This document shows, one piece after another, positions 34,632 through 42,075 of a stretch of 42,075 bases of DNA. Below the pieces are notes generated by a model that was not told the DNA's origin, ran no database searches, and saw only the letters and a program-made list of their open reading frames with translations. Location: assembly GCA_947311495.1 (NCBI GenBank), contig CAMZLG010000076.1, positions 1 through 42,075 on the forward strand, written 5' to 3'. The first letter of the stretch is position 1. The number at the start of each line of letters is the position of its first letter. Position numbers and translations under genes: made by a program. This stretch comes from an uncultured Zetaproteobacteria bacterium. GTDB taxonomy: Bacteria; Pseudomonadota; Zetaproteobacteria; Mariprofundales; Mariprofundaceae.

Positions 34632-34707
34632 GCGGGTATAGCTCATTTGGTAGAGCGCGACCTTGCCAAGGTCGAGGTGACCGGTTCGAGCCCGGTTACC
34701 CGCTCCA
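34632..34707 (+). tRNA. tRNA-Gly (GCC)
   Basis: The cloverleaf is complete: acceptor GCGGGTA with TACCCGC, anticodon GCC at 34665-34667 in the loop TTGCCAA, T-arm GGTTCGAGCC and an encoded CCA end. It is the first of three tRNA genes in one transcript. Confidence 0.97.
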
Positions 34708-34721
34708 GTTTTTGAACTTGT

Positions 34722-34768
34722 AAAAAGGAGTTTGATTGTCTTCGGGCTCAAGCTCCTTTTTTGTTTTT
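34722..34768 (+). terminator. terminator-like hairpin inside the tRNA cluster
   Basis: AAAAGGAGTTTGA pairs with TCAAGCTCCTTTT, 13 pairs with one G-T, and is followed by T-rich sequence. It lies between tRNA-Gly and tRNA-Cys. It would act as a strong intrinsic terminator or a processing site, so the downstream tRNAs may depend on read-through. Confidence 0.7.
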
Positions 34769-34807
34769 AAGATGCTTTGTGAGGCTACCAGCTTACAAAG
34801 CTTGTTA

Positions 34808-34882
34808 GGCAGGGTGGCTCAGTGGTACGGCGGGGGATTGCAAATCCCTTATTCGCGAGTTCGATTCTCGCCCCTGCCTCCA
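34808..34882 (+). tRNA. tRNA-Cys (GCA)
   Basis: Acceptor GGCAGGG pairs with CCCTGCC and CCA is encoded. The anticodon is GCA at 34840-34842 in the loop ATTGCAAAT. D-arm GGCTCAGTGGTA and T-arm GAGTTCGATTCTC are normal. Confidence 0.97.
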
Positions 34883-34921
34883 ATTTCAACGCTAGTATTG
34901 ATGCTAATGTTGATTGTGCAT

Positions 34922-35008
34922 GCCGGGATGGCGGAACTGGTAGACGCAGGGGACTTAAAATCCCCCGGTGGTGACACTGTGCCGGTTCGACTCCGGCTCT
35001 CGGTACCA
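34922..35008 (+). tRNA. tRNA-Leu (UAA)
   Basis: An 87-base class II tRNA with a long variable arm. The anticodon is TAA at 34956-34958 in the loop CTTAAAA between GGGGA and TCCCC. T-arm GCCGGTTCGACTCCGGC, acceptor GCCGGGA with TCTCGGT and encoded CCA complete it. With the preceding genes it gives the Gly-Cys-Leu order of E. coli glyW-cysT-leuZ. Confidence 0.97.
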
Positions 35009-35161: not shown

Positions 35162-35303
35162 CAATATCTTGCAGCATCATTATGCACTTAAAAACAAGAG
35201 CTTGTGATATTCGTAACATATTCGCCACAGCCCAACATCGTACCTTGAATCCAACGATATCTGGACAATGCCGCTGGTAATAATCAGCGCAAAGGAGGCT
35301 TCG

Positions 35304-36782
35304 ATGTCATTACAAGAAATCTATCTATTATGGTCAGAAAATGCAGCCATATCAGCCACAATTTGGCTTGTATTGCTCATGACTTTAACCTATCTCGCAA
35401 GAGAACCTATGCACAGTATGATTCACGCCGTCACATCCCTGATGAAAAGCGCATTTACCCAAGCAGCAAGTGCATTATCGGATGTGGAGCAGCGCCTCGC
35501 GCAACGCAACACAGAGGTACTTATTGCTGAAGGCAGAGAAGCCTCAGAACATGAAATTGAGCGTGAATTTGAGCGCATCAATAACATTGTTGCCAAAGAT
35601 TTGGCTGAATACCCTACCCTGCATCGTAAAGTCAATGATGTGATTACCAAGCTGGATGAAGATTATAAATCCAGTGCGGACGTGCCACCTGAAGCACCTG
35701 GTTGGGCAAAAGCTGTGGATGCGGTGGCTAAAATTACCACATCTAAAAATGACCCTATGGTGGGTGATATTCTTGAAAGTATTCATGGCTCTATGGAGAA
35801 AAATCATGAGAAAACATTGGAATCTTACCGTTTAGTCAGCAAAGAGCGTCACATGTTGCTTAAAAACATGCGCCCCGCTTGGCACGGCATGAATAAAGAC
35901 CTCAAACAGGTTGACCAAGATGTGAATGCACTTTTAGAACGTGCGCAAGTGGTTGACCGTCAAATGGAACATTATGAGGAAATCATTCGTGAAACCGATA
36001 CCGCGAAGAAAACATTGTCATCATCCTCATTGACGCAATTTTTCGTGGCTGGTTTTGTGCTTGCCATCGCCATTGGTGGCGCCATGATAAACTTCAACTT
36101 GATTGCTCGCCCCATGCAAGAAATGGTGGGCGGTAGCAGCAACATGATGGGGTTTAAGGTGGCAAACATTGCTGCACTGGTCATCATTCTTGTGGAAGTT
36201 GCCATGGGTTTATTCCTCATGGAAAGCTTGCGGATTACGCGGCTATTCCCCGTGATTGGTGCAATGAAAGACAGTATGCGTATCAAAATGGTGTTTATCA
36301 CTTTTGGTATTCTTTTCATGCTTGCCAGTGTGGAAGCAGGTTTGGCATATATGCGTGAAATCTTGGCGCAAGATGATGCGGCTCTTCGCGCTTCATTGCT
36401 TAATGGTAGTGATGCCATGAATGCAGCTTCAGCTGTATCCGACCGCTGGATTACCACAGCCGCACAAATGGGCATGGGTTTTATTCTTCCCTTTGCTCTG
36501 GTGTTTGTAGCGATTCCACTTGAATCGTTTATTCATTCATCGCGCACAGTGCTGGGCATTGCTGCAGTGGCGTCGCTTCGCGCCGCTTCGTTTATGTTTA
36601 ACTTGCTGGCAAACAGCGCCCACTATGCAGGGCTAATGCTCACCAGCTTGTATGATTTACTTATCTTTATTCCGCTTTGGATTGAGTCCAAAATTAAAGG
36701 CACTGCACCCAAAGCACGCAAAAAAGATAAACATGGGTTTAACCCGCTTGATACACAAAGCATGAAGGAGGTTTCATCATGA
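35304..36782 (+). CDS. polytopic membrane protein with long coiled-coil domain, function unknown
   Basis: A 492-residue protein that I do not recognise. One N-terminal helix (about 14-32) is followed by a charged, helical, probably coiled-coil region (35-240) containing heptad-like runs such as LKQVDQDVNALLERAQVVDRQMEHY. Then come about five or six membrane helices: 244-266, 284-309, 327-350, 387-408, 414-435 and 441-461. The basic tail (462-492) is probably cytoplasmic. AAAGGAGG precedes the ATG at 35304. It overlaps the VWA lipoprotein gene by four bases, so the two probably form a complex at the inner membrane. Confidence 0.8.
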   Translation: MSLQEIYLLWSENAAISATIWLVLLMTLTYLAREPMHSMIHAVTSLMKSAFTQAASALSDVEQRLAQRNTEVLIAEGREASEHEIEREFERINNIVAKDLAEYPTLHRKVNDVITKLDEDYKSSADVPPEAPGWAKAVDAVAKITTSKNDPMVGDILESIHGSMEKNHEKTLESYRLVSKERHMLLKNMRPAWHGMNKDLKQVDQDVNALLERAQVVDRQMEHYEEIIRETDTAKKTLSSSSLTQFFVAGFVLAIAIGGAMINFNLIARPMQEMVGGSSNMMGFKVANIAALVIILVEVAMGLFLMESLRITRLFPVIGAMKDSMRIKMVFITFGILFMLASVEAGLAYMREILAQDDAALRASLLNGSDAMNAASAVSDRWITTAAQMGMGFILPFALVFVAIPLESFIHSSRTVLGIAAVASLRAASFMFNLLANSAHYAGLMLTSLYDLLIFIPLWIESKIKGTAPKARKKDKHGFNPLDTQSMKEVSS

Positions 36783-37423
36783 AATATATTGCATTGATAC
36801 TTACAACACTATTGTTTGGCTGTGATAGCGGCAAAGAACTGCCTACAACCAAAGGTGTGTATATGTTGCTCGACACATCAGGCACCTACACCCAAGAGTT
36901 GGTCAAAGCACAACATTTGATTAACTTTACACTTGCGAAACTCAACCCTGGCGACACCTTTGCTGTGGCGCGGGTAGACACAGCAAGTTTTAGTGAAAAA
37001 GATATTGTGGCTAAGGTGACATTTGATGATCGCCCTAGCATTGCCAACCGTCAAAAGCGTCAGTTTCGTGAGAAAATTGATGCGTTTGTGAAGGGAGTTA
37101 AGTCCAGTGGTTACACCGACATCACAGGTGGCATTTTACAAGCTGTGGAATATCTCAATGAAGCAGGTGTTGGCAAAAAAACCGTGCTTATTTTCTCTGA
37201 TTTAAAAGAAGAGCTTAAGGAAGGTTATAACCGCGACATTCCATTGCAATTGGATGGTTTTAATGTGGTGGCATTGAATGTGACCAAGCTTCGTAGCGAC
37301 AATATCGACCCACGTGAGTACATGGATAGATTACAAGCATGGGAAGAACGCGTGAACGCAGGCGAAGGTACTTGGCGCGTAGTTAATGATATGGAACGCC
37401 TAGAGTCCATTATTCTTGATTAA
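36779..37423 (+). CDS. lipoprotein with von Willebrand factor A-like domain
   Basis: A 214-residue protein with a type II signal peptide and lipobox LLFGC (Cys15), the next residue being Asp, which would favour inner-membrane retention by the E. coli +2 rule. The mature part is a VWA domain. The MIDAS motif is DTSGT (Asp32, Ser34, Thr36), a DxSxT variant. The second and third metal residues are in TDITGG (Thr116 or Thr113) and FSDLKE (Asp141). It overlaps the membrane protein gene (ATGA). VWA domains mediate metal-dependent protein contacts, and this one probably binds its neighbour or a shared partner. Confidence 0.82.
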   Translation: MKYIALILTTLLFGCDSGKELPTTKGVYMLLDTSGTYTQELVKAQHLINFTLAKLNPGDTFAVARVDTASFSEKDIVAKVTFDDRPSIANRQKRQFREKIDAFVKGVKSSGYTDITGGILQAVEYLNEAGVGKKTVLIFSDLKEELKEGYNRDIPLQLDGFNVVALNVTKLRSDNIDPREYMDRLQAWEERVNAGEGTWRVVNDMERLESIILD

Positions 37424-39061: not shown

Positions 39062-39975
39062 TTTTAGTCATTGGCGATATTATTGTAGATGAATTTATTT
39101 GGGGTGATGTAAGCCGTATTTCCCCAGAAGCACCTGTACCGGTGGTCAATGTGCAAAAGGTTGACCGCCGTTTGGGTGGTTCTGCCAATGTGATTCGCAA
39201 TCTTCATGCTTTAAACACCAAGTCCGCCATGTTCGGCGTGGTCGGTGATGATGAGCCAGGGCAATGGGTGCATAACCGTTTGGGTGAGCTTGATTCTGAT
39301 GATGTGGGTGTGTTTACCAAAAAAAATGAGCGCCCTACTGCGATTAAAACCCGTGTGGTGGCGCAACATCAACAAATCGTGCGCTATGACCATGAGTGGG
39401 CAAGCCCCATTCACCCCGATACACAAAACAAGATACTGGAACAAATTCTAAGCAAGCTAGACCAAGCTGATGCTGTAATTTTATCCGATTATGCTAAAGG
39501 TGTGCTCACCCCTGAACTATTGGAGAAACTTATCCCCAAACTTAAAGGTAAGATTGTAGGTGTTGACCCTAAACCTGCCAACAACGCATCTTATCATGGG
39601 GCAACCTTTATCACGCCCAACCTTTTGGAAGCCTCACAAATGGCAAATATGGACAATATCAACGAAGATGGGCATGTGGAAATGATTGCCAAACATTTGT
39701 GCGAAACTTTGAACTTAAAATATATCCTTGTGACCCGCTCTGAGCGTGGCATGACTTTGTTTGATGGTAAACAATGTCATCATATCCCGACAGCTGCGCG
39801 TGATGTTTTTGATGTGACAGGTGCAGGTGATACCGTGATTGCAGCATTCACGGCATGTCTCGCCCAAGGTAGCTCACCACTTGACGCTGCAAAAACTGCC
39901 AACCAAGCCGCGGGTGTGGTGGTCGGCAAGGTCGGCACGGCAACCGCAACATGGCAAGAAATCGAGAATCATTGA
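39058..39975 (+). CDS. hldA: D-glycero-beta-D-manno-heptose-7-phosphate kinase
   Basis: PfkB-family kinase that makes heptose-1,7-bisphosphate for LPS core. The 305 residues have the HldE N-terminal-domain features VIGDIIVDEFIWGDVSRISPEAPVPV, LGGSANVIRNLHALN, ILSDYAKGVL and DVTGAGDT with catalytic Asp258. The adenylyltransferase domain of fused HldE is absent, so this is the separate HldA form and a HldC partner should exist elsewhere. It overlaps rlmN by four bases and kdsB by one. Confidence 0.92.
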   Translation: MILVIGDIIVDEFIWGDVSRISPEAPVPVVNVQKVDRRLGGSANVIRNLHALNTKSAMFGVVGDDEPGQWVHNRLGELDSDDVGVFTKKNERPTAIKTRVVAQHQQIVRYDHEWASPIHPDTQNKILEQILSKLDQADAVILSDYAKGVLTPELLEKLIPKLKGKIVGVDPKPANNASYHGATFITPNLLEASQMANMDNINEDGHVEMIAKHLCETLNLKYILVTRSERGMTLFDGKQCHHIPTAARDVFDVTGAGDTVIAAFTACLAQGSSPLDAAKTANQAAGVVVGKVGTATATWQEIENH

Positions 39976-40754
39976 TGCCTTCTGCGCAGACAAATAGCAA
40001 ACTAAGCTGTGCCATCGGCATCCCTGCTCGCTTTGAATCCACACGTTTCCCGGGTAAACCTTTAGCCCTGCTTGCTGGCAAACCTATGATTGTACATGTG
40101 ATTCAGCGCGCACTTGAAGCTGATTTGGGGCAAGTCATTGTCGCTACCGACCATCAAGGTATTGCAGATGTTGCCAAGGATGCAGGCGCAAGCATTGCCA
40201 TGACCAGAAGCGACCATCAAAGCGGCACAGCAAGGCTTGCTGAAGCCATGTTGGATATTGATGTGGATGTAGTGATTAATGTGCAAGGTGATGAGCCATT
40301 AATTGACCCACAAGCTATTCGTGATGTGGTGCAACCCTTTGAACATCAAGTTGAACTGCAAATGGCAACCCTTGCCCACCCCATTCGCCAAGCTGCTGAT
40401 TTTGATGACCCCAATGTGGTGAAAGTGGTATGTAATGCGTTAGGTCATGCCATGTATTTCAGCCGCGCAAGTATTCCTTATCCGCGCAACCAAGACGCGC
40501 TAACTCAAGCTGATACTTTGCAGCATGTAGGTTTGTATGCCTATCGCAAAGACTTCTTGCTCAAGTATGATTCCCTCCCGCCCTGCCAAGCTGAACATAT
40601 CGAACAGTTGGAACAATTAAGAGTATTGCACCACGGTTACCCCATCGCAGTTACCGTTGGCGATTACCATTGTTTGGGCGTGGATACACCTGAAGATATG
40701 CAACGCGCTGAACAACTTATCTCTACTGGTGGAACTGAAATTTTCCATGTTTAA
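39975..40754 (+). CDS. kdsB: CMP-Kdo synthetase KdsB
   Basis: Activates Kdo as CMP-Kdo for LPS assembly. The 259 residues show the nucleotide-binding IGIPARFESTRFPGKPL near residues 14-30, the VINVQGDEPLI motif, YFSRASIPYPR, the HVGLYAYRKDFL segment and the end GVDTPEDMQRAE. ATG at 39975 overlaps the hldA stop (TGATG). A start 24 bases upstream would add eight non-conserved residues. With kdsA, hldA and the LptF/G gene it makes this window rich in LPS functions. Confidence 0.96.
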   Translation: MPSAQTNSKLSCAIGIPARFESTRFPGKPLALLAGKPMIVHVIQRALEADLGQVIVATDHQGIADVAKDAGASIAMTRSDHQSGTARLAEAMLDIDVDVVINVQGDEPLIDPQAIRDVVQPFEHQVELQMATLAHPIRQAADFDDPNVVKVVCNALGHAMYFSRASIPYPRNQDALTQADTLQHVGLYAYRKDFLLKYDSLPPCQAEHIEQLEQLRVLHHGYPIAVTVGDYHCLGVDTPEDMQRAEQLISTGGTEIFHV

Positions 40755-40798: not shown

Positions 40799-42075
40799 AT
40801 GAGCGATAAAAAAGATGAACGCGATATAGACGAAATCTTAGCCAGCATTGATGCGATGTTGGCTGAAAAAGATGATGACGCTGATTCACCCAGCAAGCGT
40901 AGAGAAACCGTTGAAAAAGCAGCCCAAAGCTCCGAAGATGTCCTGGGTTTATCATCCTCTGCCGAAGAAGCGCAAACCTCAGCCAAGTTGCAACCGTTTG
41001 AACCCTTGGATGACATCTCTGATACATCCGATAAACCTGCTGCAGATTCAATTGATGACGTTGTAGATGAAAGCGGTGAGACGGAAGCTATAGAAACTAA
41101 AGAAGTGACCGATGAAACTTCGCCACGGCAGCGCATTGTGCTCACAGAAGAATATTTAGAACCCAGCGCCCAAGAATCCTTACCCTTATGGGCGGCACAA
41201 ACACAATCCATCCAAGATGAACCGATGGATGAAACCGATGTTAATCAAAAACCTACTACGAGCGGAAGTGACTTGGAGCAATCCCAAACCACTAAAGCTA
41301 AATGTGAAGATGAAGTAACACATCACGAAAAAAGTATCGTAAAGGAAGTTGAAAGCACTTCAGAGGTCACTAATATTGATGATATTTTAGGTAACTTGGA
41401 TGGCTTTGATATTCCTGACTTGGGTGTGCTCAATGAAACAGCCGAAGAGAAACTTGAAGAAGTCCATGCTGCTGAAATAAATCAAGATAAAAACAATGTA
41501 GAAAACCATACTGATACACCCGCCACTAAAGCTGAAAGTAAGCACAAAGATGAAAATACAAATAATGAATTTGATGCGGTGTTTGATGCTATTGCCAATG
41601 ATGACACCATCACCTTCGACATTAGCGATGCCATGAGCGAAGACACGGTTTATGATATTGAAGTGTTGGACAAAGAGCTGGTTGAAGCCTTTGTGCAAGA
41701 CGTTGTACATGAACATGATACCGATGATATTGACGAAATTGCTGAAACCAAGGCTGATGATGAATCAGACTTAAATGACATGGATATTGAAACCTCCACG
41801 AACGAAGAAGTAAATGAAGATACTAATGATGAAGCAGATGATTCCAGTGAACAAACCCTTGAAGCTGACGCTTTAAACAGTGAAAGCATCGATGAGGTCG
41901 TTGATGATATTGATGAAAGTGAAATCATTGATGATGCCAAAGATGAGACAGAACCGTTGGCTGAACATATCCAAACCTCAGTGCAAGAAGCAGTTGAACA
42001 AGATGACACCATCACCCTCAACCCCGATGAATTAGACCCCATCATTGAAGCCATCAGCGATGATGTGCGCATCAA
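40799..42075 (+). CDS. long acidic disordered protein with PopZ-like N-terminal helix (partial)
   Basis: The frame is open from ATG at 40799 to the window edge: 425 codons with no stop. The protein is dominated by Asp, Glu, Thr, Ser and Ala and should be mostly disordered. Residues 9-22 (DIDEILASIDAMLA) resemble the client-binding N-terminal helix of PopZ, whose family begins with an acidic EEILASI-type helix before an acidic linker. A related copy, IDDILGNLD, starts at residue 193, and DDTIT repeats at 268 and 402. No membrane segment is seen. It begins 44 bases after kdsB without a clear ribosome-binding site. The C-terminal domain is cut off, so the family is unproven. Confidence 0.75.
   Translation, partial: MSDKKDERDIDEILASIDAMLAEKDDDADSPSKRRETVEKAAQSSEDVLGLSSSAEEAQTSAKLQPFEPLDDISDTSDKPAADSIDDVVDESGETEAIETKEVTDETSPRQRIVLTEEYLEPSAQESLPLWAAQTQSIQDEPMDETDVNQKPTTSGSDLEQSQTTKAKCEDEVTHHEKSIVKEVESTSEVTNIDDILGNLDGFDIPDLGVLNETAEEKLEEVHAAEINQDKNNVENHTDTPATKAESKHKDENTNNEFDAVFDAIANDDTITFDISDAMSEDTVYDIEVLDKELVEAFVQDVVHEHDTDDIDEIAETKADDESDLNDMDIETSTNEEVNEDTNDEADDSSEQTLEADALNSESIDEVVDDIDESEIIDDAKDETEPLAEHIQTSVQEAVEQDDTITLNPDELDPIIEAISDDVRI

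Follow-up and report, generated by a model that had tools for sequence, protein, structure and literature searches.

PopZ is the textbook example of a bacterial condensate and polar hub. It is built from a short N-terminal helix that binds clients, an acidic region that is disordered and rich in proline, and three oligomerising C-terminal helices (PMC9926476). In Caulobacter, the PopZ triple mutant E12K/R19E/S22P is inactivated for client binding (PMC5182065). The popZ-valS neighbourhood is the same in Caulobacter and Magnetospirillum (PMC6414705), and PopZ has been stated to occur only in Alphaproteobacteria (PMC9512792). Our search of the literature found no paper that pairs PopZ with Zetaproteobacteria. 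Polar landmarks such as DivIVA, HubP/FimV and TipN are not known to resemble the zetaproteobacterial protein described here in sequence or in architecture. They would be alike in function, as polar hubs, if our inference is right.

A PopZ-like gene at the end of a zetaproteobacterial contig

The window, i.e. the whole stretch of DNA analysed, is a complete contig of 42075 bases from a Ghiorsea-like, iron-oxidising Zetaproteobacterium of the deep sea. The PopZ-like gene, which carries no annotation, is its last gene, and the contig end interrupts its 3' part (Table 1). As estimated from orthologues, about 30 residues are absent from the window protein, including the second C-terminal helix, and the loci of relatives indicate that valS is the downstream neighbour, past the contig end. 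The protein starts with MSDKKDERDIDEILASIDAMLAEKDDD, and the 425 aa in view comprise 31% D+E and 3% P, with a net charge of -106. The segment DIDEILASIDAML (residues 9-21, nt 40823-40861) is followed by the acidic linker, which bears out the first-pass annotation of a very acidic protein with a PopZ-like helix ahead of an acidic linker. E12-I13-L14-A15-S16-I17 have identical residue numbers in the window protein and in Caulobacter PopZ (6xry). Among the client-binding residues of Caulobacter, E12 is kept, whereas R19 and S22 have become A19 and A22. The same genome encodes ParB (E 2.6e-51).

Table 1. Features of the PopZ-like locus in the window
Feature	Position	Strand	Remark
PopZ-related CDS	40799..42073	+	N-terminal 425 residues; 3' end past contig end
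N-terminal helix, residues 6-23, DERDIDEILASIDAMLAE	40814..40867	+	PopZ helix 1 equivalent
Long acidic proline-poor linker, predicted disordered	40868..42001	+	two conserved islands within
Conserved middle motif PRQRIVLTEEYLEPSAQESLPLW, residues 109-131	41123..41191	+	orthologue alignment
IDDILGNLD, residues 193-201	41375..41401	+	not conserved as a copy of helix 1
Conserved segment FDAVFDAIANDDTITFDISDAMSEDTVYDIEVLDKELVEAFV	41570..41695	+	alignment; seen in some members of the genus only; ends in one predicted helix of low confidence
Visible C-terminal part	42002..42073	+	orthologues go on with KINxHLQQILPELISxALLEHL
kdsB (CMP-KDO synthetase), upstream neighbour	39951..40754	+	synteny anchor

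Conservation among orthologues

Complete orthologues within the genus are 339-542 aa long and have valS as the next gene. In an alignment of 9 orthologues of the genus, invariant residues cluster in three islands, namely the N-terminal helix, the middle motif and the C-terminus, and the acidic stretches between them differ freely in length. Positions 1-21 contain 11 invariant residues. All complete orthologues within the genus have an N-terminal helix of the form R[DN]I[DE]E[IV]LAS[IL]D, and the EILASI-type helix is also kept in 8 zetaproteobacterial genera. It is thus not the chance feature that the first reading had allowed for. The middle motif has the consensus P-R-x-R-I-V-L-T-E-E-x-L-E-P-S-A-Q-E-S-L-P-L-W in the aligned sequences and appears as RVVLTEDMMVE..SLPL in other zetaproteobacterial genera. 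The long acidic linker leads to terminal amphipathic helices centred on a conserved LP.LI motif, the C-terminal consensus of the 9 sequences being LNPDELDPIIEAxSDDVRIKINxHLQQILPELISxALLEHL.

The additional docking sites that had been proposed fared less well. The sequence IDDILGNLD is present in the window protein, but it is not conserved, the orthologues having ADSIGDLDDFDLPDL or AESIGDLDDLDLPDL at this site. The two DDTIT copies (residues 268-272 and 402-406) belong to separate conserved segments, DDTITFDISEAM.EDTVYDIEVLD and the C-terminal DDTISLNPDELDP, respectively. They are therefore not repeats of one docking unit, and the label of a repeat protein is unsupported.

Two subtypes of the C-terminus are seen within the genus, one in L037, L033 and L035 (DELQDMVQAVSADVAQQINDHLQTWLPGLISIGIKNH) and the other in L034, L036, L038 and L040 (DELDPLIEAVSDEVRIKINQHLQQILPELISDALLEHL). 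In some Ghiorsea genomes (L034 and L038), kdsB and the PopZ-like gene are separated by a short gene for a hydrophobic membrane protein; its product of 218-225 aa looks haemolysin-III-like by eye.

Distribution and gene order in Zetaproteobacteria

To map the family, 78 zetaproteobacterial genomes from 18 genera were searched with a profile built from residues 1-30. A match was obtained in 28 of the 78 genomes and 8 of the 18 genera, with a single match per positive genome. In all 27 members whose contig continues (27/27, 8 genera), valS is the next gene on the same strand. The Mariprofundus-like genus g9, which includes two single-contig genomes, gave no match to this N-terminal profile. In genera g8 and g10, only 111-125 bases separate holC from valS, which directly follows it, so the PopZ-like gene is missing from that slot. 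The order in other genera is holC, PopZ-like gene, valS, with HolC confirmed by PF04364. As many zetaproteobacterial genomes lack it, the gene is dispensable.

Additional, diverged members may be encoded by the gene before valS in L214 (family f2) and L194 (genus g2); the middle motif is retained in L214 (RVVRLTEDMIVDSPQQTLPLP), which has no clear EILASI helix. A zinc ribbon of the MJ0042/ZitP type was considered as a co-occurring partner and set aside as uninformative, being common in zetaproteobacterial genomes both with and without the gene.

Comparison with alphaproteobacterial PopZ

A set of alphaproteobacterial popZ genes was gathered via PF10691, and in 26 of 32 loci popZ is closely followed by valS. 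The parts of these proteins follow the order N-terminal EPSMEEILASIRRIISED, acidic linker and C-terminal TLEELVRELLRPMLKDWLDxNLPxLVERLVEREI, the linker often including a VL[DE]LT[DE] motif. The zetaproteobacterial protein is alike in the position of its EILASI helix, its acidic disordered linker, its LP-centred C-terminal amphipathic helices and the location of its gene directly before valS. By eye, its middle motif also resembles VL[DE]LT[DE]xM of PopZ (e.g. VLELTDDM). The acidic fraction (31% in the window protein) is close to the 29% published for the Caulobacterales PopZ linker, whereas proline amounts to 3% versus a published 23%, and the linker exceeds the mean length published for Caulobacterales by a factor of 3-4. 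The protein further differs from PopZ in that R18, R19 and S22 of helix 1 are replaced, that its C-terminus is too diverged for the curated profiles PF10691/DUF2497 and NF052660, and that it occurs in Zetaproteobacteria.

The search of zetaproteobacterial genomes with PF10691 (DUF2497) gave sub-threshold noise only, none of it at the PopZ-like locus. No zetaproteobacterial member reached the curated cut-offs of PF10691 or PopZ_fam (NF052660). For one of them PopZ_fam was the sole NCBIfam match, at E 0.044 and 15 bits versus a cut-off of 125. The DUF2497 comparison recommended by the first-pass annotation thus yielded no match, which indicates that the relationship to PopZ is remote. Pfam and NCBIfam scans of the zetaproteobacterial members at permissive E-values revealed no unrelated domain, at the C-terminus or elsewhere, that would explain the protein; weak matches (Nnf1, GlgE and others) look compositional.

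Profile-profile alignment was more informative. Helix 1 (EEILASIRRIISED) is kept in all zetaproteobacterial orthologues, and its profile match to alphaproteobacterial PopZ lies above every decoy. With hhalign, the N-terminal profiles of the two classes aligned with E 8e-9 and a score of 33.8 (200 column-permuted decoys, at most 17.2), and the C-terminal profiles with E 2.6e-5 and a score of 25.4 (best of 200 decoys, 18.5). The C-terminal match improved to E 1.3e-5 with LP-anchored blocks and more genera, and to E 3.3e-6 (score 26.8) when the intermediates described below were joined to the alphaproteobacterial side. Since amphipathic helices may score falsely, harder controls were applied. The 104 windows from five unrelated conserved-gene alignments scored at most 14.9. 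When permutation preserved the hydrophobic pattern, the best decoys scored 20.5 (C-terminus) and 20.7 (N-terminus), and 0/120 in each case equalled the real scores. These profile-profile comparisons, and they only, relate the predicted C-terminal amphipathic helices to DUF2497. A search of the PDB with the zetaproteobacterial helix-1 profile missed PopZ (6xry) and gave as top match an internal EILASLDEL of sulfite reductase. This chance occurrence means that the helix alone proves little.

Structure prediction

AlphaFold2 was run on a complete orthologue of 339 aa with nine sequences as input. The model has a confident helix at 8-23, a mostly disordered middle (pLDDT <50) and C-terminal helices at 269-285 and 293-332 (block pLDDT about 65 to 85). 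The overall pTM of 0.20 is expected for a mostly disordered monomer, the model consisting of isolated helices. The predicted order of helix, disorder and C-terminal helices gives the PopZ layout.

Intermediates in a third clade and a gammaproteobacterial lead

A third clade of Pseudomonadota (INTERMEDIATES), which we take to be probably Magnetococcia, also has a PopZ-like gene directly before valS (L180, L175, L177, L196, L197, L207, L209 and L210). Its proteins combine GPSMEEILASLEEILDE at the N-terminus with a C-terminus of the QLPELLEKIIREEVERV type, as in L180 (5751-7823), which reads GPSMEEILASLEEILDEAEDD ... AILALAREIAEQMIREQLPELLEKIIREEVERVRRGQ. As in PopZ and the zetaproteobacterial family, there is an EILAS[LI] helix wherever the N-terminus is covered, a very acidic repetitive linker and a LPELLEKIIREEVERV-type C-terminus. 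The repeats are acidic or contain proline, with D+E reaching about 52%, and the C-terminus is nearer to alphaproteobacterial PopZ than that of the zetaproteobacterial proteins. For one member, PF10691 gave a sub-threshold match of 13.2 bits at the extreme C-terminus (G045:C1:1798610-1798816). As intermediates, these proteins link alphaproteobacterial PopZ and the zetaproteobacterial family. Extreme repeats (EEAEEVAEEE and similar) occur in L180, L197 and L210, which have about 44-56% D+E.

In a ValS tree, the alphaproteobacterial, zetaproteobacterial, gammaproteobacterial and intermediate clades each form one separate well-supported group. This argues against a recent transfer of the popZ-valS pair, and a recent passage from Alphaproteobacteria to Zetaproteobacteria is unsupported.

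The slot between holC and valS is often occupied in Gammaproteobacteria by a small acidic gene, which has an IPVLxEVV motif (IP[VIL]L..[VIL]) (e.g. L241, L242, L249, L250, L251, L259, L263, L265 and L266). A search with one sequence was unsuccessful, and the family was gathered from the genes preceding valS. It has the same slot and an acidic composition, but lacks a clear EILASI helix. For nine diverse gammaproteobacterial sequences, the C-terminus matched the zetaproteobacterial one with E 9e-7, no decoy being as high, and showed no significant match to alphaproteobacterial PopZ. This gene may be a very remote PopZ counterpart; with only nine diverse sequences, we treat the relationship as a lead, not as a result. 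The popZ-valS pair could even be ancestral to most or all Pseudomonadota, the alphaproteobacterial, zetaproteobacterial, Magnetococcia-like and gammaproteobacterial genes being one family diverged beyond recognition. We regard this as rather doubtful. If true, polar condensate hubs would be an old feature of the phylum as a whole instead of having arisen in Alphaproteobacteria.

Interpretation of the zetaproteobacterial gene

The PopZ lead of the first-pass annotation has gained support from the C-termini of the orthologues, the popZ-valS gene order and the decoy-controlled profile-profile similarity at both ends. Neither outcome that the annotation had named as refuting it was seen, since no unrelated C-terminal domain turned up and the orthologues keep the helix. 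In our opinion the gene is probably a diverged PopZ homologue, with an oligomerising C-terminus that forms a polar condensate or network, a linker that provides spacing and an EILASI helix that captures clients. The basis in hand consists of the position before valS, the similarity to PopZ at both ends, the third-clade intermediates, the predicted layout and the ParB gene. Oligomerisation, polar localisation and client identity are inferred. By analogy with PopZ, oligomerisation of the C-terminal amphipathic helices would build a condensate or network at the cell poles, which are free of nucleoid, and the acidic disordered linker would determine how widely spaced and how fluid it is. Clients, the most plausible being the ParB/parS complex, would be captured at the tip by the N-terminal EILASI helix, and a second binding site could lie in the conserved middle motif. 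The protein is then most likely a condensate-forming polar hub.

Descent from the popZ ancestor would also be compatible with a change of role. The gene could encode a different zetaproteobacterial scaffold, in which helix 1 serves other partners (e.g. proteins of division or of the envelope) and the function resides mainly in the middle motif. This would fit with the changes at R18, R19 and S22, with the absence of the gene from many zetaproteobacterial genomes and with the middle motif PR.RIVLTEE.LEPSAQESLPLW, which equals helix 1 in strength of conservation and surpasses the C-terminus. However, alphaproteobacterial PopZ may itself have a counterpart of this motif (VLELTDDM), and both the helix-disorder-helix layout and the gene position are retained, so that we hold such a switch to be unlikely. 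Convergence would mean that an unrelated acidic disordered protein has come by chance to an EILAS(I/L) helix and an amphipathic C-terminus. Short motifs do match by chance, as the EILASLDEL of sulfite reductase illustrates, and the curated PopZ models find no match. Yet the position before valS is common to three clades, both protein ends outscore all decoys, intermediates exist and helix 1 stands at the Caulobacter residue numbers; this reading is already disfavoured and appears very improbable. The net charge of -106 over 425 residues could also suggest a nucleic-acid mimic or chaperone-like acidic protein without a polar role, such as a DNA mimic or a ribosome-associated factor. This we hardly believe: conservation is found in short helical islands, the acidic stretches vary freely (339-542 aa in the genus), and no such family is matched in Pfam or NCBIfam.

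As to classification, the cut-offs of DUF2497 and PopZ_fam are not reached, and the proteins are therefore named a diverged PopZ-related family and not a curated member. The family is best described as sharing with PopZ its gene position, its layout and both terminal regions.

A homologue outside Alphaproteobacteria would contradict the published restriction of PopZ (PMC9512792), and its presence in Zetaproteobacteria, together with the intermediates of the third clade, would point to an earlier origin of PopZ. It also proposes a candidate polarity factor for this class of iron oxidisers. These proteins offer a natural set of linkers, 300-500 aa long, poor in proline and with acidic fractions of up to about 50%, which could serve to relate linker composition to condensate properties, and the gene losses in other zetaproteobacterial genera render the claim testable.

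Other features of the window

Elsewhere in the window, the region 35268..37423 (+) holds a 504-aa protein that is membrane-bound in appearance and has no Pfam match; after it, and overlapping its end, comes a lipoprotein-like protein with a VWA domain (36779..37423, +). A run of three consecutive tRNA genes, Gly(GCC), Cys(GCA) and Leu(TAA), is located at 34632..35008 (+).
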